From positions 1 through 46,871 of IMG/VR virus record IMGVR_UViG_3300043640_000084: DNA of 46,871 nucleotides; one strand, written 5' to 3'. Source of the stretch: a virus. The position numbers and the translations under genes are program-made. Positions 2,751 to 45,111 of this stretch are shown in pieces. The notes beneath the pieces are model-generated. The model searched no databases, was not told the DNA's origin, and worked only from the letters and a program-made list of their open reading frames with translations. Numbering within the stretch: position 1 is the stretch's first letter; every line of letters starts with the position of its first letter.

Positions 2751-4270
2751 CGCTTGAAGACGTTCGCTTTTCTGAGTTGATGGGCCCGACTGAACTGCAG
2801 CGTAGAGCTGTAAAGGCGTCGGATACTCATCAGTATGTGCTGTTTGGCGGTGCTGGCGGGGGCGGTAAGAGCTACCTTCTGCGCTGGTGGTGCTTACGTC
2901 AGTTGCTAAAGAGATTCGCTGAGACGGGCATCTATGGGCTTCGTGTAGGGCTATTCTCTACCGATTATCCAACGCTTACAGACAGGCAGATTAGCAGAAT
3001 AAGTCGAGAGTTCCCCGATTGGCTTGGCCGTCTACGTCAGACGCGAGATGAAGGGTACAACTTCAAGCTAAATGAGGAGTTCGGAGGAGGCACGATTGCC
3101 CTTCGTAACCTCGATGATCCAAGTAAGTATAAGTCGGCAGAGTTCTGCGACATTGCCATTGAAGAATTGACGGAGAATAGCAAGGAGGATTTTGATGACC
3201 TCCGGTTCCGTCTTCGCTGGCCTGGAGTTGAAAGACCATGCTTCATGGCCGCAACGAACCCTACTGGCATTGGCTATGCATGGGTGAAATCTCTTTGGAT
3301 CGATCGTAAATTCCCCAAGGAGATGGACTCGGTAAAGAATGAGTTCTGTTATGTGCCGGCGCTTCTGAGTGATAACCCGCATATATCTGGAACCTACCGC
3401 AGCACGCTAGAGAGTTTGCCTGACAAGATGCGTAAGGCGTTGCTCGAGGGGGATTGGACAGTGCCAGAAGGCCAGTACTTCACCAACTTTGAGCGCAACG
3501 AGCGGAAGATTCATCCAGCTATTCTGGCTCAGGTTGTAAAGCCATGGTGGCCAAAGTGGATATCAATGGATTGGGGCTTCAAACATGCCTCGGCGATCTA
3601 TTGGCATACGACCGGATCTGTTAGCCCTCAAGAGGCTCTATTGTTTGGCCGTGAGATTGATGTGCCAAAGAAATACGTCTTCACCTATCGGGAGATGATC
3701 GTGCAGTTGTCCGAAAGTCGTCAAAGCGAAGACGACGAGGACAGTGAAGATGATGCGACGGCAGAGCTTGAGCTTGGTGGTGACATAGCGGGGAGAGAAT
3801 CAGGGATAAAGCGGTTCTTCCTATCTCCTGATGCGTTCGGCAAGAAGAAGAGTGGCCGCACTGTAGCAATGAGTTTGGCGTCTGGTGGAAAGTCTCTAGG
3901 ACTTCCCCAGCCTGAACCTGCGGACAATGAGCGTGTCAATGGATGGCGCTTCATGTATGGCCTGATTCAACGTGATGAATGGTTGATATCGGAGTTCTGC
4001 CCCGAAGCCTTGGATGCTGTTCCTGCTGGAATGTACGACAAAGACGGGAACATCGAGGACATCAAGAAGACAGATCACCTCTACGACGATGTGATCGATT
4101 CGTTGCGGTATGGGACGCAATCGATGCTGAACAATAGCAAGATGCCATTCAGTGTGAAGATGGCTGAGGCAATAGCGGCTGCACCTAACGTCAATGCGGC
4201 GAGCATGATTCACCTTAAGATGACGGCAGAGCACAAGAAGAAGACAACACGCTACGGGAGGCAGTATTGA
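2747..4270 (+). CDS. terL: Terminase large subunit
   Basis: This encodes 507 aa and is the packaging motor and headful or cos nuclease. The ATPase domain has a Walker A GGAGGGGKS (residues 34-42), a Walker B with catalytic acids CDIAIEE (about 134-140) and the coupling motif ATNPTGIG. The RNase H-like nuclease begins at ISMDWGFKHAS (first Asp about 275) and ends with acids in DHLYDDVIDSLRYG. An acidic insertion (EDDEDSEDDA) lies inside the nuclease domain. It starts at GTG 2747, overlapping the small subunit. Confidence 0.95.
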   Translation: MTLEDVRFSELMGPTELQRRAVKASDTHQYVLFGGAGGGGKSYLLRWWCLRQLLKRFAETGIYGLRVGLFSTDYPTLTDRQISRISREFPDWLGRLRQTRDEGYNFKLNEEFGGGTIALRNLDDPSKYKSAEFCDIAIEELTENSKEDFDDLRFRLRWPGVERPCFMAATNPTGIGYAWVKSLWIDRKFPKEMDSVKNEFCYVPALLSDNPHISGTYRSTLESLPDKMRKALLEGDWTVPEGQYFTNFERNERKIHPAILAQVVKPWWPKWISMDWGFKHASAIYWHTTGSVSPQEALLFGREIDVPKKYVFTYREMIVQLSESRQSEDDEDSEDDATAELELGGDIAGRESGIKRFFLSPDAFGKKKSGRTVAMSLASGGKSLGLPQPEPADNERVNGWRFMYGLIQRDEWLISEFCPEALDAVPAGMYDKDGNIEDIKKTDHLYDDVIDSLRYGTQSMLNNSKMPFSVKMAEAIAAAPNVNAASMIHLKMTAEHKKKTTRYGRQY

Positions 4271-4273
4271 TGG
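4256..4273 (+). repeat. Initiation-site repeat, copy 1
   Basis: The 18 bases gggaggcagtattgatgg hold the ribosome-binding site and ATG of the 4270 gene and also encode the last residues of the terminase. An exact copy is at 4478-4495. Confidence 0.85.
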
Positions 4274-4458
4274 AAATCTACGAGCGCAATGGCGAAACTG
4301 TATTCCCGGTATTCACTGCAGACAATACTCCGAGTGGGTTTGTCTCTTACCTTACATCCGGCGATGTCCGTTGGGCAATAGAGTCTGAAACTGAAGACAT
4401 CCCTGCCTCGGAGATTGAGGCAGCTAAGGTTGCATTTGCGGAATATCTTACCAAGTAA
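4270..4458 (+). CDS. Hypothetical small protein
   Basis: This encodes 62 aa and is acidic. The ATG at 4270 overlaps the terminase stop (TGATG) and sits 8 bases after GGGAGG. No motif is recognised; there are beta-type residues first and a helical acidic end (ASEIEAAKVAFAEYL). The 18-base ribosome-binding/start junction is repeated exactly at the next gene (4478-4495). Confidence 0.65.
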   Translation: MEIYERNGETVFPVFTADNTPSGFVSYLTSGDVRWAIESETEDIPASEIEAAKVAFAEYLTK

Positions 4459-4477
4459 GCCACAGACACAGAGATAT

Positions 4478-4495
4478 GGGAGGCAGTATTGATGG
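4478..4495 (+). repeat. Initiation-site repeat, copy 2
   Basis: This is an exact copy of 4256-4273, here giving the ribosome-binding site and ATG of the 31-aa gene at 4492. It suggests duplication of, or recombination at, a gene junction. Confidence 0.85.
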
Positions 4496-5134: not shown

Positions 5135-7410
5135 GCACATCTCCGGTAATGCCTGACGTTCAGGACCAAGAGAAGCCAGCGCCCGAACTGTCTGAAGAAG
5201 GCCGCACGGCTGTCGAGTCTTTGGTTGAGGGCATACTGAAAGAGGAGCTGACTGCGCGACGTGCTGAAGTACGTAAGGCTGCACAGCAGAGGAACTTCCG
5301 CAACGGCTTCCAGCATATTTGGTGGGACAGCAAGAGCCATACATTCATGCATCCAGAGGCTAGTGGCCAGCAATTGCCCCGGTTCATGGACGTCTACAAC
5401 ATCTATACGCCTCACTGGAGGTCATTTGTCTCGATCCTTAGCCAGAACCCTCCAGGCATCAACTTTGTGCCGGATGACCTGCAGCGATCGGTAGACGTGA
5501 CAGCGGCAAGCTATGCGGAGAAGATGCGGCACCGTGTTGACCGGTTGGTTCACATGAAGGACCGGCAGGCTGAAGTATCGGGCTATTTCTGCACCGATGG
5601 CCGCACGATTACTTGGACGCGGGTTGATGCTAAGGGCAAGCTTCGCTGCACGGTTCACGGCGTACTTGAGTCAAAGGTTCCTATCTTCGCACGCAAGATG
5701 GAGCGCTGGGGTTATGCGGTTCTCTCTGAAGAAGTGGATATCTGGGAGGCTAAGGAAGAGCACCCGGACTTCGCTAACGACATCAGTGCAAGCGAAGGCG
5801 TTACTAGCGAGGCTTCGTATGAGCGCTTTGCGCGTCTTGGCATCCTTGCTAACAAACGGGGCGCAGAGAGCCAAGGTGAGACGGTAAAGAGCATGGTTAC
5901 CGAGCACAATGCTTGGATACGCCCTAGCCGTTACCGCAAGGCGTCAGCAGAGGCACAGGAAGAGCTGAAGAAGCTGTATCCCGAAGGCCTGAGGGCTACG
6001 GTAATCAGCAGCAAGTGTGTGAAGTGCGTACCTGAGAAGATCGAAGATGCTTTGAAGTGCGAGTGGCCGGCGCCGGGACAGGGTTCTAGCCGTCCTTCCC
6101 TGCTGCACGACCTTATTCCAATTCAGGAAGCATTCAATGATGCGCTGAACATGCTGCGCGAACACTTCGAATTCTCCATCCCTGCTACTTGGGTTACGGA
6201 TACGGTTGATTCTGAGGCATTGGCTGAACAGCGTAGCGCGCCAGGGGTTATTCATCAGATCACCGTGCCTTCAGGTGCCTCGATCAATGATTTGGTGATG
6301 CAGGAGCAGGTTGCACAGCTTCCCGCGGAGTTGGTTGGGAATATCGATCGCCTGCTTTCCTTGGCTCAGTTCGTCACTGGGGATCTACCTTCTCTTACGG
6401 GAGAGGGCGATGCACACTCTGAGACGGCAAGTGGGCAGAAGCTGCTGTCCGATCAGGCTAAAGGTCAGTTATCCCCGGCATGGGGCGGCTTGCAGTGGTT
6501 ATTCGCTGGCACGTATGAGATTGGCGTTATCCTCGCTGCCAAGATGCTTGGTGATAGGGATTCGATTTCGATTCAAGGCGGGGCCGGTCAGCAGCAGTTC
6601 AATCCAGCGGCCATTCTTGATGGCATATTTGGCTGCTATCCGAACACGGATTCTTCATTCCCTGAGACGATGGCAGACCAGCGTGCAAGTCTTCAGGCTG
6701 TTCTTAGTCAATTAGGGCAGGGCGAGCAGGGGCAGGCCATTGTGTACCACCCTGACAACCTGAAGCTTATCAAGCAGTATTCGGGGCTGGAGAACCTTGT
6801 GATTCCCGGTGCCGAGGCAAGAGACAAGCAACTGCGCGAGATCGAGCAGATGTTGAAGGAACCACCGGTGCCGGATCAGACGCAGATACCGCAGTGGCAG
6901 CAGGCCGTACAGCAGGCCCAGCTATCAGGCCAGCAACCACCAGAGATTCCTCTTACGTCTTCGGTGCAGATTGGCAAGTACGACTTCAACCAGCCGGAGC
7001 TCGACAAGGTGATTGAGTGGCTGTCTTCTAATGCTTGCTTCGAAGAGCAGCAGAAGGGCAACACTCAGGGCATTCAGAACGTCCAGCTTCACGCCGACTT
7101 ACATGCAGCAGCAATTGCCAAAGCAGCAGCAGCGGCACAGCAGCCACAGCAGACGCCTATGAGCATATCTGGTGCGTTCAAAGACCTCGATCCTGCTACT
7201 AAGGTTCAGGTATTGCAGCGTGACGGCTATAATCCTGATCCAAGCGCCTATGAAGTCACAACGGCACTGGATAACCAATCTACCGCGGCGGCGACGCAGG
7301 ACAAGGCAGCAAGCGCACAGCATAAGTCTGTACTTGCAGCTAAGGAAGCTGTTACGCCGATCAAGAAAGATCCACCACCCGACCAGATAGATCAGGTCAA
7401 GGAGCAGTAA
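5131..7410 (+). CDS. Portal protein (P22-like size class)
   Basis: This encodes 759 aa and forms the ring at the head vertex through which DNA enters and leaves. Support: position after terminase, size like P22-type portals (about 700+ aa), the helical N-terminus, the conserved HIWWDSKSHTF region near residue 60, a central HSETASGQKLLSDQAKGQLSP helix, and a Gln/Ala-rich C-terminus typical of a barrel or crown extension. The start is GTG 5131 overlapping the upstream stop; its stop overlaps the next ATG. A long portal and lack of long-tail genes favour a podovirus. Confidence 0.85.
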   Translation: MSTSPVMPDVQDQEKPAPELSEEGRTAVESLVEGILKEELTARRAEVRKAAQQRNFRNGFQHIWWDSKSHTFMHPEASGQQLPRFMDVYNIYTPHWRSFVSILSQNPPGINFVPDDLQRSVDVTAASYAEKMRHRVDRLVHMKDRQAEVSGYFCTDGRTITWTRVDAKGKLRCTVHGVLESKVPIFARKMERWGYAVLSEEVDIWEAKEEHPDFANDISASEGVTSEASYERFARLGILANKRGAESQGETVKSMVTEHNAWIRPSRYRKASAEAQEELKKLYPEGLRATVISSKCVKCVPEKIEDALKCEWPAPGQGSSRPSLLHDLIPIQEAFNDALNMLREHFEFSIPATWVTDTVDSEALAEQRSAPGVIHQITVPSGASINDLVMQEQVAQLPAELVGNIDRLLSLAQFVTGDLPSLTGEGDAHSETASGQKLLSDQAKGQLSPAWGGLQWLFAGTYEIGVILAAKMLGDRDSISIQGGAGQQQFNPAAILDGIFGCYPNTDSSFPETMADQRASLQAVLSQLGQGEQGQAIVYHPDNLKLIKQYSGLENLVIPGAEARDKQLREIEQMLKEPPVPDQTQIPQWQQAVQQAQLSGQQPPEIPLTSSVQIGKYDFNQPELDKVIEWLSSNACFEEQQKGNTQGIQNVQLHADLHAAAIAKAAAAAQQPQQTPMSISGAFKDLDPATKVQVLQRDGYNPDPSAYEVTTALDNQSTAAATQDKAASAQHKSVLAAKEAVTPIKKDPPPDQIDQVKEQ

Positions 7411-13820: not shown

Positions 13821-16800
13821 GTGATTAACGTCACTGGCTGCACCGAAATACCGTTGGGGGTCTTCGGGGGAAACAACCTCGACATGCAAGCGACAGATTT
13901 GCCGATGGGATTATCTCCAGATAACGGGGATTGTGCATTCCTGCCCGGCAGTGTCTTTACGCGCCCGTCACTTCATCGCCTTTTGACGTCTGGTGAAGGA
14001 AGCCAGATCGTTTACGCAACGACATATCTTCGCCCTGATGAAACAGTGGTCCAGCTTACATTTGATGCCGCTGGCCGGATGTTCGCTGATGGCGTGCAGT
14101 TCGGTGCAACTCGTGCAGGCAATCGCTTCTTCACGTGCAATGCCTTCGGAAAGACGTATATTGCTACCTCTGACGGATCGTTCGGTGCAGACGTACCACT
14201 GCAATTGACCCCGGAAGGTTTCCTAGACCGAGTTTCGCAGGATGGACCCGGCGCCCCTCCAACACTTTCGAATCAATCCCTGCCTGCGGTAGCTCTGGTA
14301 ACCGGTTCCTCGAGCGCAGCAGTTGCAATCGTCGCGATGACGCCTATCAACCCTGAACAGGTGCAGGTCGGATCGGGCAACCAGAATGAATGGAATGGCG
14401 GTTATCAGCCTCCAGTCTATGAAACCTATTACACCTCTCTGCTAATCCAGACTGCAACGGCACATGGTCTAGTCGTCAATGAAAGCGTCTCTATTGTAGG
14501 TAATAGCCTCTATAACAGCGGTTCTTTCTATGTGACTTTTGTCGATAGTGCCAGCTTTCAATTTGAGGTGGCGTTCTATTCTCAGAGTGGAGCGGTAGGC
14601 ACAGGTGGCACAGTTACGGCCGTAGCTGCGCTTCTGGTGAGGAATAACAACCAGGTCACCGCGACCACTGCTACTCCTCACAGCCTCCGCTCTGGATATC
14701 AGGTAGCTATTAACGGAGTGGCCGACGCTTCGCAGAGCATCACCAAGATAGTTGTCAATAACGAGACCTTACCGGGCGTCGCGACAATTACCACGCCTGT
14801 AGATCATGAGTTTGTGCCGGGTGACGTGATAAGCATCGCTGGCGTCACTGCTACCACCGTAGGCGGCTCAATTACTGCATGGGTTGTGAGTGCCAACTCA
14901 GCAACGGTTACCATGGCAAGTAATCACGGCTTGACCGCAGGGACTTCGGTTCTCGTAGAATTCGGCACTCTAGGCCTGACTCCGCGGATTATCGACTCCG
15001 TCCCATCTCTCAATACGTTTACCTTCCCTATTCAGTGGGTAGATGGTGATGGAACCACAGGCACAGTGCAACTCCCCTGGCCGGTAGCGTCAGGCACTCA
15101 GTTCACCATTTCTGCGACACCAACACCCACGACATTTCAGATTCAATTCAACTTCAATGATGGGACGTGGACAAGCGGGTCTATTGGTTTCGCGTGGGAT
15201 GGCACTTTCTTTGTCACTGCTACGCCTTCCCCGACGTCATTTGTTTATAGCCAGCCCGGGCCTAATAATTCCGTGCAATCCGGCACCGGCACGGCTACAC
15301 CTGTTGGGCAAATGTCTCCGGGTACTCACAAATGCGTCTGCATCTTCCAGACTCGCACCGGATACCTTACCGGGCCGTCGATTCCTGTCACTCTGTCGGC
15401 GGGGGGAAGTCAGTATCCCCTGGCGGCGAGAATTCCTATCGGGCCTTCGAACGTAATTGCTCGCATTCTTGCCTTCACTGGTGCAAATGGCTCCAATTAT
15501 TTCTATCTCCCGATCGCTCCGCAGCTAAATGGGCAGATTATCGGCACCTCGACGGTCGTAAATGACAACGTAACGACCTCGGCAGTGTTTGATTTCTCAG
15601 ATGAGGCCTTGTTTGCAGGTACGGCGATCGATATTCCGGGTAATAACCTCTTCAACCTTCAGGTGCTTGGCCCCTGCCTTGGATTCTTCAACTATGCCTC
15701 GCGACTGATGGCGTGGGGTGAGCGGAATAAGATCCAGCAATTCCTGAACATGGGATTTGAGGGTGGATATTATGCTGATGCCCCGAATAATCCTCTAGGT
15801 TGGAACGTTGCCGGCCTTGACGGAACTCTTACCTCTGGAGATTACGGGCAGGCATGGACGGCGACTTCAGCAACAATTAGCCAATCGGCCTATCAGGATC
15901 GTTTCGGCATTGCGATTATCCAGCCGAACACGCAATACACCTTGCGGCAGTGGGTAAACGGCACCTCGATCGTGACTATCAGCTCCGTATCGACAGGGTT
16001 TACCACTTCGGCTACGGTTTCAGGAGTAGGCGCGTTTGCTGAGGCTAAATTCTCCGTCAAAACCCCGGTGACTATCCCTGCCGACCTAATTATTACGATT
16101 TCTCAGGACGGCACGACGACTCACGATGAAATAGAGATCATTTACACGCTGAATCCCTACATTCTGACCGCAAAGACCTCTTACGTGAACAACCCCGAGT
16201 CCTTCGACGGCGTGACAGGGATTCTCGGGCCGACTGCTGACCCGCATCCAGTTCTGGGCATGGAAGAGCGGAAAGACGTGCTCTGCCTGCTAACTTCAGG
16301 CCCTCAAGGATCGCTGTACGAGACCGAAGACACGCCTTCAGGTGAGCCTGCTACATGGAACATCAGACACATCGCAGCCGAGTGCGGCCTTATCTCGGTT
16401 TGGGGTGTAGCCAAGTTTGAGGACTGGTTTTCATGGACTTCTGACACCGGATTGCGGATCTTCGACGGCTCCAATGTTGAAAAGATGAGCCAAGAGATTC
16501 AGCCTTGGTGGAATTCTCTGAATCCAGGGGCAAAGCAATTTACCGTGCTGGCAAATGACCCTTACACGCGGCGAGTTTATGTTGTGGCGGCTACGGGAAC
16601 GGAGACAGTCACGAATGAAATGTATGTCCTCGACTACCGCGACCTGAATACCTCAAGCCTATTGGCAAATGCCGGAACTCTACGTATTGGCTACTCAGGC
16701 AAGGTTGTAACAACAGATTTGACCCGTAAATGGTCGCCATGGTCAATGACGATGAACTACTGCGGATTGCTTACGCTATCGAGTGGCGAGGCTGTTATGG

Positions 16801-17288
16801 CCTTCTGCGGGGGTACTGGTGTTTCGCTTGCTGATCCTGCTAATTCGTCTGTTTATGAGTTGGCCGAGGGAGTTATTGATGGCATAGATCAGGATTACGG
16901 CGCGTTTTGGTTCAAGTCCACGTATCCCACGTATTTCTTCATCTCTGCGGACGATGCACAGCAGAAACAGCTTGGCGTTCATAGGCTGCAGCATGATTTC
17001 CTGACCATGAACTGTACCGGCGTTGGCGCGGTCTTTGTGACTCCGAATCTCGATCGCATGGGCAACACAGGGAAATCTACTCGCGCCCTTGCTGTAACAG
17101 AAGACTTGGCGCGCGATCTTGAATTTGGCCTTCAGTTGGCTGCGGAGCGCATAAGCTACAGGGTTTGCTGCCAGCCTGCAGGGCCTCAGCCTGCCCCAGC
17201 TAACGCGCCGGCAGGGTTCCGGCTGTCGTCTATGACGCTTGCAGTGAAGACACACGCTTACAGCCCGATCAGAGGAAGGAACTCTTGA
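13821..17288 (+). CDS. Nozzle-like tail protein with repeated beta modules
   Basis: This encodes 1155 aa. The N-terminus (PLGVFGGNN...LPMGLSPDNGDCAFLPGSVFTRPSL) resembles podovirus tail nozzle or packaged-DNA stabilisation proteins. Between about residues 190 and 440 there are at least four related segments of the type T-x-HGL-x(2)-G-x-x-V-x-I-x-G, like FCCH-type beta modules. The rest is beta-rich, with a Trp-rich region around residues 830-900. The start GTG 13821 has a poor ribosome-binding site, perhaps altered by the endonuclease insertion upstream. It should close the tail channel below the adaptor. Confidence 0.75.
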   Translation: MINVTGCTEIPLGVFGGNNLDMQATDLPMGLSPDNGDCAFLPGSVFTRPSLHRLLTSGEGSQIVYATTYLRPDETVVQLTFDAAGRMFADGVQFGATRAGNRFFTCNAFGKTYIATSDGSFGADVPLQLTPEGFLDRVSQDGPGAPPTLSNQSLPAVALVTGSSSAAVAIVAMTPINPEQVQVGSGNQNEWNGGYQPPVYETYYTSLLIQTATAHGLVVNESVSIVGNSLYNSGSFYVTFVDSASFQFEVAFYSQSGAVGTGGTVTAVAALLVRNNNQVTATTATPHSLRSGYQVAINGVADASQSITKIVVNNETLPGVATITTPVDHEFVPGDVISIAGVTATTVGGSITAWVVSANSATVTMASNHGLTAGTSVLVEFGTLGLTPRIIDSVPSLNTFTFPIQWVDGDGTTGTVQLPWPVASGTQFTISATPTPTTFQIQFNFNDGTWTSGSIGFAWDGTFFVTATPSPTSFVYSQPGPNNSVQSGTGTATPVGQMSPGTHKCVCIFQTRTGYLTGPSIPVTLSAGGSQYPLAARIPIGPSNVIARILAFTGANGSNYFYLPIAPQLNGQIIGTSTVVNDNVTTSAVFDFSDEALFAGTAIDIPGNNLFNLQVLGPCLGFFNYASRLMAWGERNKIQQFLNMGFEGGYYADAPNNPLGWNVAGLDGTLTSGDYGQAWTATSATISQSAYQDRFGIAIIQPNTQYTLRQWVNGTSIVTISSVSTGFTTSATVSGVGAFAEAKFSVKTPVTIPADLIITISQDGTTTHDEIEIIYTLNPYILTAKTSYVNNPESFDGVTGILGPTADPHPVLGMEERKDVLCLLTSGPQGSLYETEDTPSGEPATWNIRHIAAECGLISVWGVAKFEDWFSWTSDTGLRIFDGSNVEKMSQEIQPWWNSLNPGAKQFTVLANDPYTRRVYVVAATGTETVTNEMYVLDYRDLNTSSLLANAGTLRIGYSGKVVTTDLTRKWSPWSMTMNYCGLLTLSSGEAVMAFCGGTGVSLADPANSSVYELAEGVIDGIDQDYGAFWFKSTYPTYFFISADDAQQKQLGVHRLQHDFLTMNCTGVGAVFVTPNLDRMGNTGKSTRALAVTEDLARDLEFGLQLAAERISYRVCCQPAGPQPAPANAPAGFRLSSMTLAVKTHAYSPIRGRNS

Positions 17289-17289
17289 G

Positions 17290-17376
17290 GTGATTGTTAG
17301 CTGAAGGATTCGAACCTTCGCCACGTATGGTACGGTTTCCCGCTGCAATCAGCCTCTCTGCCAAGCCGACAATCAC
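17290..17376 (-). ncRNA. tRNA-Ser-like element lacking an anticodon loop
   Basis: Read on the minus strand, the core 17370-17296 folds as a 75-nt class II cloverleaf. Acceptor GTCGGCT/AGCTAAC has one mismatch and one G:U. Positions 8-9 are TG, and a GCA/TGC D-stem has a GAGAGGC-type loop. The anticodon stem GCGG/CCGT is closed by a GAAA tetraloop. A CCA/TGG variable arm is closed by TACG, and a perfect T-arm GAAGG-TTCGAAT-CCTTC is present. D-arm, T-arm and variable arm match tRNA-Ser, but no anticodon exists. The acceptor stem extends outward to 13 bp, so no free CCA end is encoded. It cannot decode; it may be a tRNA mimic, processing signal or decayed tRNA. A weak TAGTAT -10 lies 9 nt upstream. 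Confidence 0.7.
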
Positions 17377-17394
17377 TAGCAAAGGATACTACAA

Positions 17395-17919
17395 ATGGCC
17401 AATGCCGCAACTCCTAACCTATCTTCAATTCTTCAGAAATATCCCGACATCGGACGCGCTCTTCAGTATCACCAGGATGCGCTGAACAATATCGGGCAGC
17501 AGTCCAATGCTTCTCCTGTTGGCGCTCCTCCCGCACCCGCTCCGCACGTTGGGCTAACGGTTAAAGGTGGTGGCGGGATATTCGACGCAGCAATTGATGA
17601 CAACTCCCCTAAGTATCGGGGGCATTCAAACTTCTTGGAATATTCAGACAATCCTTCTTTCAGCAATGCCCACGTTATTCATCTCGGGCCTAGCAGGAAT
17701 TGGAGAGGAAGTTTAGGGCCGGGAACATTTCACTTTCGCTCTTACTCTTCTTATCCGACCTCTCCCGCATCCGCACCTATTTATCATCCTGCGGTATCTG
17801 GGGAAGGAAGTGCAGCGCCTCAAATGCAGGCAGGTAAAGGTAGTGGAACATCGCAAACTCCGGGATATGGGTTTGGGAATGTCCCATATAACGCCACTAA
17901 GCCGCCAATCAGAGGATAA
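17395..17919 (+). CDS. Hypothetical Pro/Gly/Ser-rich protein
   Basis: This encodes 174 aa and starts after AAAGGATAC. A helical N-terminus (SSILQKYPDIGRALQYHQDALNNIG) is followed by a disordered Pro/Ala segment and Gly/Ser/Pro-rich tail. It is the first of the block that ends with the putative ejection proteins. An internal virion role is possible; no family is recognised. Confidence 0.7.
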   Translation: MANAATPNLSSILQKYPDIGRALQYHQDALNNIGQQSNASPVGAPPAPAPHVGLTVKGGGGIFDAAIDDNSPKYRGHSNFLEYSDNPSFSNAHVIHLGPSRNWRGSLGPGTFHFRSYSSYPTSPASAPIYHPAVSGEGSAAPQMQAGKGSGTSQTPGYGFGNVPYNATKPPIRG

Positions 17920-22666: not shown

Positions 22667-24418
22667 TTGAAGAAGATATTTCTGCTGCTCTCCTTGGTTA
22701 CCGCTACCGCCTTCGGGCAAGGAGTACGCTTCGATTCCAATGTCACCACCTCGGCCAGTAACGTACCAGCAGGGGCGCAGGCTCCGGTTTATACGCTGCC
22801 GAACGCCAAGATCACGGTATGCGGCTATCCGGCGACGCCAGCGACGGTGAGCCCTTGCACGAATCAAGTACCGATCTACACAGATCAGGCGCTTACTCAG
22901 GTCATAACGCAGCCTCTCCAGGCTGACTCGCAGGGCAGGTTTGGCTTCTGGATTAGCCCTTCGCTTGCCAGCTACAGCGTTCAGACCGCAGGCGGCGCCT
23001 ATGTTGGCACGTTTGCCTTGTCCCTCAATTCGCCTCCGGGTCCGGTTGGGCCTCCGGGTTCAACGACTGCGACGGGTTCAACTGGTGCCTTCACTGTACC
23101 GAGTACCCTGACGGCAGGGACTTATGCTTATGGTCCGCTTACTACGGTTTATCTGATTACGGATGGCGATTCAATTACGGCCGGTGCAGGGCTTCCAAAC
23201 CCAGCTACTCAATCGTGGCCCGCGCAACTCTCTCAGCTTCCTTTTTTCAAAAATCGAGCCACGCTCGTCAACGCGGCAGTGAGTGGGCAGGGATGCGCCG
23301 GCATGACGTCGCGTTACCCCACAGCGGTTAGGCCCTTCAAACCGAACGGATCGACCATCACGAAAAGCTACCTGACCGTGTTGATTGGAAGAAACGATCT
23401 TGCCGCTGCTGCACCGCTCGAAGCCTGTATCGATGCCTATGTGACTCAGGCAAAGGCCGATGGCTTCACTGTAACGCTGATGACCATCCTCCCCTCTGCT
23501 ATTACTACGGCTCCTTACGCGGGATTCACTGGTGTATGGGACCCCATCAATTACGCGGGAGAAATGGTTAGGCAGCAAGTCAATGACTTTATCCGCCGCG
23601 ATACGATTGCTGATAATGTATTCGACTTCGCGCAGGTTCTTGCCAACCCATACGACGCGAACTGGACGCAGGACGGCACGCATCCGACGGTAGCTTTAGA
23701 TGCGCTGATAGCCCGCAATATCAATACGTTCTTTCAGCAAAACAGCGCAATCCAGAACCCACAGCCACAGGACGGCTATAACCCAATATTCCACGGTTTC
23801 GTGCAGGCTGGTGATGGTGCTGGCGGCGATATGATCTCCGCTGCTAACCTCTCCCTTCAGATCATCCCCGGCATCGCTGGCGTGCATACAGGATGGAACT
23901 TTGGGGGCGGACAGGAGGGCGATTTCATCTGTGTGCCGATTTCTGGTAATGGGGTTGGATGCAATATCTACGCTACCCATTCAGACGGTACGACGCCTGC
24001 CCTATTGGGTGCATTCACACCTTCCGGCTTGACGACACAGAACGTCTCAGCAAATGGGCCTGCCGGGCCTGGAGCTATGTCCGCGGGGTTGTTTGTCGCA
24101 TCGATAGCCACTACTTCCCCGTTTTATCGCGGTCAGACTGGACAGCCTGCCTTTGCCCAAGGTGGCGCAGGATCTACTTTCGATTTCGCGGTTAGGAATT
24201 TGGCGAATAACACGAACCTCCTTCTCGTAGACGATGCCACCGGAAACACAGCGATTACCGGAGGGTTCATTACGTTCAAGGCTCCTCCCGCAACGGCTAC
24301 GACCCCCTGCACGGCAGGAGAAATGCGTGATGGCGTTATAAGCGCGGTTGCCTATCACTTCTTTTGCTATGCAACGAATCAGTGGGCTCGAGTCGTTATC
24401 ACTCCGGGTGGCTGGTAA
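22667..24418 (+). CDS. Signal-peptide-bearing tail protein with SGNH/GDSL hydrolase domain
   Basis: This encodes 583 aa. The TTG start is preceded by AAGGAG. Residues 1-18 (MKKIFLLLSLVTATAFGQ) form a Sec signal peptide. A beta-rich N-terminal part and a short collagen-like GPVGPPG stretch lead to a complete SGNH hydrolase: GDS (S169), G207 in VSGQG, N243 in GRND and the D336-GTH339 pair. Such esterases on tail fibres deacetylate or cleave host surface glycans. It is the first of three successive exported-looking fibre-position genes. The C-terminus ends in a small conserved-looking Cys-bearing module. Confidence 0.8.
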   Translation: MKKIFLLLSLVTATAFGQGVRFDSNVTTSASNVPAGAQAPVYTLPNAKITVCGYPATPATVSPCTNQVPIYTDQALTQVITQPLQADSQGRFGFWISPSLASYSVQTAGGAYVGTFALSLNSPPGPVGPPGSTTATGSTGAFTVPSTLTAGTYAYGPLTTVYLITDGDSITAGAGLPNPATQSWPAQLSQLPFFKNRATLVNAAVSGQGCAGMTSRYPTAVRPFKPNGSTITKSYLTVLIGRNDLAAAAPLEACIDAYVTQAKADGFTVTLMTILPSAITTAPYAGFTGVWDPINYAGEMVRQQVNDFIRRDTIADNVFDFAQVLANPYDANWTQDGTHPTVALDALIARNINTFFQQNSAIQNPQPQDGYNPIFHGFVQAGDGAGGDMISAANLSLQIIPGIAGVHTGWNFGGGQEGDFICVPISGNGVGCNIYATHSDGTTPALLGAFTPSGLTTQNVSANGPAGPGAMSAGLFVASIATTSPFYRGQTGQPAFAQGGAGSTFDFAVRNLANNTNLLLVDDATGNTAITGGFITFKAPPATATTPCTAGEMRDGVISAVAYHFFCYATNQWARVVITPGGW

Positions 24419-32618: not shown

Positions 32619-32794
32619 GGGGCCACATGGGGGCCAAACGTTGGAAATGTGTGTATTTTCCTGTCCTTTCGTGTCCAGTATGTCCATCAAAACACTGGTA
32701 AATCCGCAGTCTTAGCGGGTTCGAGTCCCTCACCGCCCACTATAACCCTTTTAGAATCAATGATAGATTCGACGCTTGGGCCACCCGTGGGCCA
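32619..32794. other. Candidate attP: tRNA 3' end flanked by paired arm repeats
   Basis: The core near 32697-32740 reads as the 3' part of a tRNA: GTAAATCCGC, then a T-arm GGGTTCGAGTCCC and acceptor strand ACCGCCCA. A GTA anticodon followed by AAATCCGC fits tRNA-Tyr best; Leu is possible. On the left, GGGGCCA occurs at 32619 and 32630; on the right, TGGGCCA occurs at 32777 and 32788, each pair 11 bp apart. Core plus paired arm sites next to a tyrosine integrase is the attP layout. Confidence 0.7.
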
Positions 32795-32795
32795 T

Positions 32796-33389
32796 CTAGA
32801 TGACTTTATTGCTTTTCCTCTTACTAGAGAGTTCCAATCCTTCAGCGGAATTCACCTTTTCTCTAAGCTGGTCCGCCGCCCGGGACGCAGATTCTTTATC
32901 TGGGAATATGCCAAGCCGAAACCTAGGCCGAGAATTATCTGACATCCTGAATCGTACGTACCAAAAAGCCTTACGCTTTTCAACCGTTCCGAATTGGTAG
33001 CGATCACCTATCGCCCTAAATATAGGATCTGGTGGTTCTGCCCACGGCTTGCTCGTTGGTAAGTGGCGATGTACATTGGATCCGCGTCGAACGTTCTCAC
33101 TATGAGACACTGCTTCCAAGTGATCAGGATTTACGCAGTTTGTCACTCTACATAGGTGGTCGATGACAAGCCCTACTGCTATCGGACCATGCTTGGCCCC
33201 ATAAATAAGACGGTGGGCCGACATGCATTTACCTGCCACAACGATCCGGCTGTAGCCGTGAGCGTCAACATGACCAGTCCAAATCCAGCATGATCCCTTG
33301 CGGCTAACGTACTGCCAGAATCTCTGTAATCCGACTGCGGCCAAGCCATTTCTTAATGAATTTTCTTCTTGGGTATACTTAAACAGCAT
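32796..33389 (-). CDS. HNH endonuclease fused to integrase-type arm-binding domain
   Basis: This encodes 197 aa. Residues 22-103 are a classic HNH_3 nuclease (CWIWTG, H59 in SAHR, D77-H78 in IDHLC, CVNPDHLE, ENVRRG). Residues 130-187 match the first 70 residues of the neighbouring integrase: RYQxGxxEKRK, W-x2-RFR, SRPRxRxG, D, RAA-x2-LR and G-x-E occur in the same order in both. The gene lies between the right att arm and the integrase, ending 1 base after the arm. It probably cuts DNA at or near att-type sequences; that is an inference. Confidence 0.88.
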   Translation of the reverse strand: MLFKYTQEENSLRNGLAAVGLQRFWQYVSRKGSCWIWTGHVDAHGYSRIVVAGKCMSAHRLIYGAKHGPIAVGLVIDHLCRVTNCVNPDHLEAVSHSENVRRGSNVHRHLPTSKPWAEPPDPIFRAIGDRYQFGTVEKRKAFWYVRFRMSDNSRPRFRLGIFPDKESASRAADQLREKVNSAEGLELSSKRKSNKVI

Positions 33390-33476: not shown

Positions 33477-34604
33477 CTATTCCTCCCTCAAAATAAATTC
33501 CATAGCCTTATCGCTGGCCTCTCGCATGCGCTCAAAATCAGCTTCTCCGTAGACGTTCATCGTCGTGTGGGTATCACTGTGTCGGAGCATGTCTCGCATC
33601 ATTTCTGGATCCGCTCCCGATGCCTTCAGGATGTTCTTGAAGCTATGCCGGAACGTATGCCAACCTAGATTGAAGTCCAGGCCGACCGCCTTCCCTGCCC
33701 CTCTGAGCACGTTGTATTGAATGTGCTGCGAGTTGAAAGGCATATCGCCTCCCTGAAATGGACTAGCAAACACCCAACTATCCTGTTTCTTGAATTCTGT
33801 TATGCCATATAACGCGAGGAAGGCATCTGCCGCGAACTTGGGCAGAGGTATTGAAGCCTCTGAGCCATGGGTCTTAGTCTCTCCCACCCTGCCGTCAACA
33901 ATAGCCCGTTGAATCATCAGCTTTCCACCCAGAAAATCGAAGTCCATCCACTGAAGCGCGAACAGCTCGCTTGCACGTAGCCCGAGACAGCCGGCGCCTA
34001 TCAGCATGGCGCGGAACCTAATGTCGCTTTGGTTGCGGAGTATCTTAAAGAACTGCTTTGGGCTTATCGTGCGTGGCTTGCGAGTTCTCTTTGTAGCTCC
34101 AGAAATCGAGAAGAGTGACATGGGATTAGCAGGCCAACTAGTCCACTTCCAGAGCATCGCAAACTTACAGAGCACTCGCATCTGCGCATGGATGTGGCCG
34201 CGGCTACGTGTGCTGCAGTCAAGGCCGTTGATCCACTCCCTAACCGCTAGCGCGTCAAGTTCATCGAGTGCAGCGTTGCCCCACTTCGGCGCGATGTGAT
34301 TGCGGTGGAGATTTCTATACCCGCGGCTGGTGGAATACCTTTCAGGCATTTCCTCCCGCTCGTAGCGCGTAATGACCTCTGCCAAAGTACGTCTTACCTC
34401 AACACCCTTATGTGCGTTGAAGGTCTTTCGTAGATCCATTGCGGCCCGTTGTGCTGCGGCCTTCGTGGGTAGATCCGACACAAGTCCAATTCTTACCCGC
34501 GGGCGGCTGGAAGATCCCGCTTGCCGGAACCTCAAGAACCAACACACCCCCTCTTTTGTCTTGCGCTTCTCCAATGAACCAGACTGGTACCTACTTGTGT
34601 CCAT
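33477..34604 (-). CDS. int: Tyrosine-recombinase integrase
   Basis: This encodes 375 aa. N-terminal residues 4-72 form an arm-site binding domain, then a SAM-like core-binding domain (about 75-165) and the catalytic domain with R210, H316, R319, H342 and the nucleophile Y352 (VYGEADF). All five visible key residues are intact. AGGAGG precedes ATG 34604. It integrates the phage at attP, proposed 740 bp downstream of its stop with the HNH gene between, so the usual int-attP contact is interrupted. Confidence 0.95.
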   Translation of the reverse strand: MDTSRYQSGSLEKRKTKEGVCWFLRFRQAGSSSRPRVRIGLVSDLPTKAAAQRAAMDLRKTFNAHKGVEVRRTLAEVITRYEREEMPERYSTSRGYRNLHRNHIAPKWGNAALDELDALAVREWINGLDCSTRSRGHIHAQMRVLCKFAMLWKWTSWPANPMSLFSISGATKRTRKPRTISPKQFFKILRNQSDIRFRAMLIGAGCLGLRASELFALQWMDFDFLGGKLMIQRAIVDGRVGETKTHGSEASIPLPKFAADAFLALYGITEFKKQDSWVFASPFQGGDMPFNSQHIQYNVLRGAGKAVGLDFNLGWHTFRHSFKNILKASGADPEMMRDMLRHSDTHTTMNVYGEADFERMREASDKAMEFILREE

Positions 34605-38269: not shown

Positions 38270-38523
38270 TGCGTAAGAAATATCCCATGAAGACAGCAAC
38301 AGCTGCGGTTAGATATCTGATGCAAACCGGAGCATGGTGGACCGAACCAACAATGCAGCGGGCGGTAAGGAAGCTGACCGGGCGGCAGTTCTCTGGATCA
38401 AGTATTACCGCACGAATTCGAGGGCTTCGGCCTGAAGTCAAAGTGATAAGCCGCCTAAAGGACGAATCAACATCGTTCGAATACCGTATCGCTAAAAAGA
38501 ACAGGAAACAAGAGGCTGCATAG
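38269..38523 (+). CDS. Small winged-helix-like DNA-binding protein
   Basis: This encodes 84 aa, start coupled to the previous stop (TAATG) behind GGAGG. It is basic; residues 24-60 (TEPTMQRAVRKLTGRQFSGS, then RIRGLRPEVKVISRL) look like a winged helix with a wing YRIAKKN. It precedes the replication genes and may regulate or assist them. No family name is certain. Confidence 0.6.
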   Translation: MRKKYPMKTATAAVRYLMQTGAWWTEPTMQRAVRKLTGRQFSGSSITARIRGLRPEVKVISRLKDESTSFEYRIAKKNRKQEAA

Positions 38524-39333
38524 ATGGGACGCATAAGAACAATCAAGCCGGAATTTCATTCTCACGAAGACCTGTCTGCTTTGCCTCCGGAGGCTCATCT
38601 CCTGGCTAGCGCCTTGGTCAACTATGCGGACGACGAAGGGTATTTCAATGCTCATCCTGTCCTTGTGAAGGCCGGTACTAATCCACTCAGGAAGGACTCT
38701 ACGACGGTCGAGGAGCAGTTAGCCGAACTAGAGAAGATCGGATACATTGTGATCGCACGAAATGGTGATAAGTGCTTTGGGAAGATAACCACATTCGCGG
38801 CTCATCAGAGAGTCTCGCACGCAGTTCCATCCAAGATACGGTATAAGTTTGAGAGCCTCCAACCTAAACGGAACAGTCCTCCGGAGACTCTCCCACAAAC
38901 TATTACAAGTACGCCGGAGCCTCTCCGGAATTCCTCCGGAGCTTCGCCGGAAGTCCTCCGCCCTGAATTGAATGGAATTGAATTGAATAGAAGTGGAATT
39001 GAAGACGTTTCTGTTGCTGCGCGTGTTCTTTCAGAGAAGGTCGGCAACCTCGACATCCGCTTCCAGGAACAGCTCGCCCGGATGCTGAGAGTTGTATGCA
39101 AACCCACCGAGACTCTCGAGGATTGCGTGGAGCGTATGGCCGGGCAGTGGGATCGGTATAACTCCTGCCGCGAGAATCTCAACTATCCCGTAGCGTCATC
39201 CCGCAAGTTCTTTGAGTCCGGAACTTGGCATGACGAAAAGCTGTGGCCATGGAAAGAAGGCAAGCAGCCGTCAGCTAATCAGGCCAAGCCAATCACGCTT
39301 CTCGAGAAGATGCGCCAACAGGAGGCATCATGA
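38524..39333 (+). CDS. Replication initiator-like protein
   Basis: This encodes 269 aa. The N-terminus (RTIKPEFHSHEDLSALPPEA, then DDEGYFNAHP) belongs to a widespread phage family of winged-helix replication proteins placed before a helicase; the C-terminal half is a helical domain (LARMLRVVCKPTETLEDCVE), perhaps for helicase loading. A linker of Pro/Ser/Glu repeats (TSTPEPLRNSSGASPE) joins them. It overlaps the helicase gene by 4 bases. Likely role: origin binding and helicase loader. Confidence 0.75.
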   Translation: MGRIRTIKPEFHSHEDLSALPPEAHLLASALVNYADDEGYFNAHPVLVKAGTNPLRKDSTTVEEQLAELEKIGYIVIARNGDKCFGKITTFAAHQRVSHAVPSKIRYKFESLQPKRNSPPETLPQTITSTPEPLRNSSGASPEVLRPELNGIELNRSGIEDVSVAARVLSEKVGNLDIRFQEQLARMLRVVCKPTETLEDCVERMAGQWDRYNSCRENLNYPVASSRKFFESGTWHDEKLWPWKEGKQPSANQAKPITLLEKMRQQEAS

Positions 39334-44740: not shown

Positions 44741-45111
44741 CCCCAGCACGAGCACTAATTGAAGCAGCAGAAGAGATGTTGCTGTTTTGCAAACATGAAG
44801 GGCCTGACTTTGAAGATGTGGATGATGAGGGAAGGTGTGAATGCACCCGAAGCTTCGACAGGAGAGAGGCTGCGCTAAAGGCTGCAATAGTAGCCGCTAA
44901 AGCAGCAGAGGATGGAGTAGAGACAACCTACACAGTAATGGGGGCTTTAGGAGGGCTATCTATGAAACCTGTTATCCACGATCCGCATCATGAAACTCTT
45001 GAATCCGCGCAGGAAAGATGCAAAAAGCTGTCGCCTATAGTTGATCGGCATATTGTCCGTCGAGAGATTCGCACAACCGTTATCGAGGTAAGGGAGAAGG
45101 AGGGCTTATGA
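44737..45111 (+). CDS. Hypothetical early protein
   Basis: This encodes 124 aa from ATG 44737 (AGGAGC upstream) overlapping the previous stop. There is an N-terminal helix (ALIEAAEEMLLFCKHEGPDF), an acidic part with two Cys and two later Arg/Glu-rich strands. Unrecognised. Confidence 0.6.
   Translation: MTPARALIEAAEEMLLFCKHEGPDFEDVDDEGRCECTRSFDRREAALKAAIVAAKAAEDGVETTYTVMGALGGLSMKPVIHDPHHETLESAQERCKKLSPIVDRHIVRREIRTTVIEVREKEGL

Follow-up and report, generated by a model that had tools for sequence, protein, structure and literature searches.

An antisense tRNA-Ser(GCU)-like element that lacks its anticodon lies between two late genes of a temperate phage and is probably a pseudo-tRNA

The window, meaning the entire stretch of 46,871 nucleotides that was analyzed (virus record IMGVR_UViG_3300043640_000084), carries a 127-bp terminal repeat and encodes a large terminase, a DnaB helicase, a tyrosine integrase, and an excisionase-like gene product, and it seems to be the complete genome of a temperate phage. 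Relatives of this phage were identified among metagenomic viral contigs and genomes of Granulicella (Acidobacteriota); the phage is one of a soil bacterium. The element described here is flanked by two late genes on the plus strand. The upstream gene (13821-17288) encodes a probable tail or structural protein of 1155 amino acids, related sequences of which occur in viral contigs and in a genome of Granulicella; no family match above the cut-off was found for this product. The downstream gene (17395-17919) encodes a protein of 174 amino acids with homologs in 29 of 399 Terriglobia genomes. A peptide-pattern search of IMG/VR with the downstream protein returned no match, and a direct search identified the gene in three relatives.

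No gap separates the two flanking genes in nine relatives (L003, L004, L005, L012, L013, L014, L010, L018, and L020), where they abut or overlap; the closest phage is among these nine, as is a Granulicella prophage. The 106 bp at positions 17289-17394, extending from the upstream stop codon (17286-17288) to the next ATG (17395), therefore represent an insertion that is private to this phage. Inspection of the insertion revealed the motif AAAGGA (17381-17386, plus strand), which probably serves the downstream gene as a new ribosome-binding site; in L012, Shine-Dalgarno-like bases for this gene sit in the end of the upstream gene. The element itself sits between two structural genes in antisense orientation to the late operon, and a search of both strands in positions 16900-17900 found neither a sigma-70-like promoter nor a terminator. 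Screening of the 29 homologous Terriglobia stretches with ARAGORN, and of 16 of those 29 with cmscan, did not recover the element, and two pattern searches of the 399 Terriglobia genomes did not recover the same anticodon-less (GNRA-loop) motif.

The letters and coordinates of the original prediction were confirmed, with the element comprising 87 nt on the minus strand (17290-17376). Read in that direction, it begins with a 5' leader, GTGATT (17371-17376), and the 5' strand of the acceptor stem, GTCGGCT (17364-17370), followed by TG and a D-arm, GCA-GAGAGGCTGAT-TGC (17345-17361), that differs by one base from that of a phage tRNA-Ser(GCU). After a single A comes a truncated anticodon arm, GCGG-GAAA-CCGT (17332-17343), a 4-bp stem closed by GAAA, and after a further A comes a short variable arm, CCA-TACG-TGG (17321-17330). 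A single C then separates the variable arm from the T-arm, GAAGG-TTCGAAT-CCTTC (17303-17319), which retains the canonical T-loop bases, and the 3' strand of the acceptor stem, AGCTAAC (17296-17302), leads into a 3' trailer, AATCAC (17290-17295), that pairs with the leader. The discriminator position is occupied by an A (17295) and CCA is absent, as had been noted previously. Positions 1-73 of the tRNA-Ser(GCU)-like core correspond to 17295-17370.

The original prediction described a class II tRNA shape with a D-arm, a short variable arm, and a perfect T-arm, and suggested a covariance search. Infernal comparison to the Rfam tRNA model (RF00005) bears this out, with a score of 34.6 bits relative to a gathering (GA) cut-off of 29; the E-value is 7.1e-06 when the local stretch is searched and 0.0013 across all 46.9 kb of the window. 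The resemblance of the element to a tRNA is beyond chance. The element was not called by ARAGORN or by the fast 'gathering' Rfam scan with default filters, both of which would be expected to miss a tRNA that has no anticodon loop. Alignments show that the canonical D-loop and T-loop bases (A14, G18 G19, A21, U54 U55 C56 A58) are all intact. Decoding requires a 7-nt anticodon loop with an anticodon and U33, in place of which the element has GCGG-GAAA-CCGT, and its acceptor departs from the standard 7 bp with discriminator and CCA in having a C.A mismatch, six further outward pairs, and no CCA. A serine-type tRNA that is unable to decode is well supported, and the element, as would be expected of a phage pseudo-tRNA, derives from a tRNA gene and is missing a decoding feature. 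Serine aminoacylation does not need the anticodon and depends mainly on the variable arm and G73 (PMC9976931). Efficient serylation of the element is doubtful because its variable arm is short and position 73 is an A.

When a 112-base query was compared by BLAST with 50,697 phage records (2.3 Gb), the best matches were Pseudomonas phage tRNA-Ser genes (E-value of 5e-5), with the complete tRNA-Ser(GCU) of Pseudomonas phage vB_PF_Y1-MI (OR500437) as the top match. The two share a near-identical D-arm, an identical T-loop, and the 5' anticodon-stem strand GCGGG, whereas in the Pseudomonas phage gene the GCU anticodon is intact, the variable arm is long, the 7-bp acceptor is clean, and CCA is present. 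Alignment of its anticodon arm (GCGGG-TTGCTAA-CCCGT) to that of the element (GCGGG-AAACCGT) reveals that five bases, U32-U36 with the anticodon included, are gone and that one base is substituted, in agreement with the earlier claim that decoding is impossible. In the acceptor and T stems, five pairs are changed on both sides relative to the phage tRNA-Ser(GCU), and all five double changes relative to this nearest functional gene may predate loss of the anticodon. A host origin was also considered and was not supported. Since the Granulicella tRNA-Ser genes that were fetched are less similar to the element than the phage tRNA-Ser(GCU), a phage-borne tRNA is, on sequence similarity, the more likely source.

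The original prediction further held that the element has a 13-bp acceptor stem and two exceptionally stable tetraloops. The length of the acceptor stands, but it contains a C.A mismatch (pair 3:70) and a G.U pair (4:69), such that perfect pairing is limited to the outer eight pairs. Exceptional stability is not borne out for the UACG loop or for the fold as a whole. The classic extra-stable UNCG hairpin has a C-G closing pair, and the UACG loop of the variable arm, which is closed by A-U, does not qualify. Moreover, the fold of the minus strand has a z-score of -1.56, with 19 of 200 shuffled sequences folding equally well, and a fold other than the cloverleaf is predicted to be optimal (-29.8 versus -27.2 kcal/mol for the cloverleaf). 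The plus strand folds with a modest z-score of -2.14.

Pairing of the leader with the trailer extends the acceptor by six consecutive Watson-Crick pairs; shuffling of the flanks gives P ~0.002. In the 252 tRNAs of the loci compared, the run of pairing beyond the acceptor was 0-2, the exceptions being L136, a second label for the L101 element described below, and one tRNA of Aeromonas phage Aeh1. In the latter (L146, about 5926-6030), an intact tRNA with a CAT anticodon has a leader and trailer that pair for 14 bp past the acceptor. An extended acceptor stem is therefore rare, yet not exclusive to anticodon-less elements.

Only one comparable case, L101 (IMGVR_UViG_3300021254_000041, locus 4236-4308), was recovered from the scans of IMG/VR. 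Like the element, L101 has a GNRA-like loop in place of the anticodon loop (CCTAA-GCAA-TTAGG) and a lengthened acceptor, which here gains eight pairs on top of the usual seven. Unlike the element, it is of class I, is nearest to tRNA-Arg, lies in the sense orientation relative to its neighbors, is followed by a T-rich tract, and is still called by ARAGORN, with a two-letter anticodon. The scan for class I tRNAs with a GNRA loop yielded 19 matches that, aside from L101, were mostly normal tRNAs matched by chance and some with 6-nt loops. No second serine case emerged when IMG/VR was scanned with exact patterns, one search targeting this element and another GNRA-loop tRNAs of class II, and five tRNA-like genes from a looser scan were rejected when inspection revealed anticodon loops of 6 or 7 nt. 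Five phage tRNA genes (L088, L089, L096, L082, and L085) have 6-nt anticodon loops from which U33 is apparently missing. A literature search found no paper on anticodon-less phage tRNAs with the terms tried.

We consider it probable that the element is a phage pseudo-tRNA, that is, a tRNA-Ser(GCU) gene that was acquired and then inactivated. This explanation draws on the match to RF00005 without an anticodon loop and the 5-nt gap relative to a complete phage tRNA-Ser(GCU), on the abutting of the flanking genes in nine relatives and the lack of the element in homologous Terriglobia stretches, on the lack of a promoter- or terminator-like site nearby, on the C.A mismatch and G.U pair in the acceptor, and on the absence of the motif from Terriglobia genomes. 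Related phages also gain tRNAs sporadically, as illustrated by a lone tRNA-Asn in L005, a cluster of four tRNAs in G754, and a tRNA-Lys-like gene in G755 that has an anticodon loop of 4 to 6 nt and a D-loop insert of ~64 nt, and the literature records phage pseudo-tRNAs that carry insertions or deletions (PMC3185647; PMC1524935), with the annotation of phage S-CBWM1 providing a further case. According to this scenario, a probably phage-type tRNA-Ser(GCU) gene would have inserted antisense between two late genes in the lineage of this phage, as a gain here rather than a loss elsewhere. Decoding would subsequently have been lost through deletion of the five nucleotides U32-U36, anticodon included, and through alteration of the variable arm and the acceptor stem. 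The element would probably be inactive as a tRNA, with neither minus-strand expression nor function, and transcripts from the late promoter would carry its complement as a passive 106-nt intercistronic hairpin, with the downstream gene now presumably initiating at the ribosome-binding site within the insertion.

Several observations argue against plain decay. The intact D-loop and T-loop bases exceed the expectation for an old, unconstrained pseudogene, and decay would therefore have to be recent. The six-pair extension formed by leader and trailer is rare among real tRNAs, and neither it nor the intact tertiary bases are explained by decay alone; both argue against a lack of selection, in an element that, of the relatives compared, only this phage carries. 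That the element and L101 both combine a tetraloop with an extended acceptor is more than decay predicts, albeit in a tiny sample. The original prediction had raised the idea of a decayed tRNA frozen by selection for structure, and of the three functions it offered, decay provides the best fit. Selection, in contrast, is not borne out, as no relative carries the element and the double changes may predate the loss. None of the related phages has a normal anticodon at this site, which would have pointed to a recent deletion; because the element itself is absent from them, there are no stems to compare for compensatory changes.

An alternative is that the insertion acts on the plus strand as a cis-acting structure in the late mRNA, in which the complement and its extended basal stem would form a stable intercistronic junction that separates, stabilizes, or marks for RNase cleavage two late messages, its tRNA origin being incidental. 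The plus strand folds somewhat better than the minus strand, the element lies precisely between one late gene's stop codon and the next one's start, where the genes would otherwise abut, and the added outer stem suits a hairpin rather than a mature tRNA. However, no terminator-like site was found in positions 16900-17900, no comparable junction structure occurs in the relatives compared, and the wobble pairs give no preference for the plus strand, as the acceptor region shows one G.U and one A.C pair whichever strand is read; an apparent strand preference in these pairs vanished on inspection. We regard such a role as unlikely, and for the more specific proposal of an RNase P/Z processing signal in the late mRNA we found no positive evidence. 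A non-decoding tRNA mimic, expressed from the minus strand as a processed or precursor RNA and engaging host factors (SerRS, EF-Tu, modification enzymes, or tRNA-directed toxins), for example as a decoy, would account for the intact tertiary bases, is in keeping with the similarity of L101 in loop and stem, and has a parallel in a Bacillus cereus pseudo-tRNA with a non-translational role (PMC3399842). This is nonetheless quite unlikely, given that no promoter-like site was found in positions 16900-17900, that CCA is absent, that the discriminator A and 3-bp variable arm do not fit serine identity (G73 and a large variable arm), and that none of the relatives carries the element. A decoy for anticodon nucleases would require an anticodon loop, which counts against the decoy reading, and the earlier suggestion of a decoy for tRNA-sensing defences gained no positive evidence. 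Improbable, too, is a broader conjecture in which the element belongs to a scattered class of phage anticodon-less tRNA mimics, with a tetraloop for the anticodon loop and leader and trailer fused into a long acceptor helix, that are retained as non-decoding RNAs occupying host tRNA-binding proteins or shaping mRNA.

That the element is an attachment site (attP) or an integration scar from a host tRNA gene might be expected of a phage with a tyrosine integrase and an excisionase-like gene, as tRNA genes are common attachment sites. An attP would be the 3' half of a host tRNA beside the integrase, whereas the element is a whole tRNA within the late operon, ~16 kb away from the integrase. A far better candidate for attP lies by the integrase at about 32717-32750, where the bases of the window agree with the 3' terminus of tRNA-Val(UAC) from Terriglobia; this stretch matched 15 of 151 Terriglobia genomes, and the four loci that were checked are tRNA-Val. 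The 3' end of the host tRNA-Val(UAC) is thus the probable attachment site as judged from this match, and with it located near the integrase at 32.7 kb, the attP reading of the element is largely refuted and very improbable. The closest relative (the L012 record) also has a tRNA-Arg(CCG) 3' half beside its integrase, suggesting that attachment sites vary among related phages.

The favored interpretation, a pseudo-tRNA, places the element alongside pseudo-tRNA genes of phages Felix O1, Bxz1, S-PM2, LP65, and T4-like phages, which are likewise tRNA-shaped with missing features, insertions, or deletions (PMC3185647; PMC1524935). It differs from these in that its anticodon is cleanly lost while the D- and T-arms are intact, its acceptor is extended by leader and trailer, and it occurs alone and antisense to a late operon. 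Like the element, tRNA-Other of Bacillus cereus is tRNA-like without translational service, and it indicates that pseudo-tRNAs can be recruited for other roles; unlike the element as read from sequence here, it is chromosomal, is expressed as part of larger RNAs under iron regulation, and produces a phenotype when deleted (PMC3399842). As a pseudogene, the element would provide a snapshot of tRNA gain and loss in phages, in which a lone serine tRNA in a gene gap has lost its anticodon and the rest is still recognizable. If the element and L101 were instead kept for their structure, they would represent a kind of phage RNA that is overlooked by standard, anticodon-seeking tRNA finders.

Other features were observed in the window and the comparison loci. 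In the window, an HNH gene (32796-33389) and the integrase gene (33477-34604) neighbor the stretch at 32717-32750. In the closest relative, the tRNA-Arg(CCG) 3' half that adjoins the integrase (L142, about 3745-3809) is a probable attP. Sub-threshold tRNA matches in relatives correspond to a tRNA-Arg 3' half adjoining an integrase, probably attP (L137), and to a separate, odd tRNA-Lys-like gene (L138). In the record of L014 (IMGVR_UViG_3300025929_000023; L143, about 2060-2200), a tRNA-Lys-like gene with a structured D-loop insert of ~64 nt and a 4- to 6-nt anticodon loop lies among lysis-region genes and folds as a cloverleaf with a long D-arm (z-score of -2.58). Long hairpins in Terriglobia genomes (L112, 2067-2155; L109, 2673-2770) have sub-cut-off scores to eukaryotic miRNA families and are perhaps miniature inverted-repeat elements. 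The window also contains a perfect 19-nt inverted repeat, GGGTGCATTCACACCTTCC, with arms ~20.8 kb apart in a late gene (24007-24025) and the far right region (44830-44848), and a 32-nt repeat around GGGAGGCAGTATTGATGG at 4242-4273, 4464-4495, and 38496-38527, possibly at gene starts.
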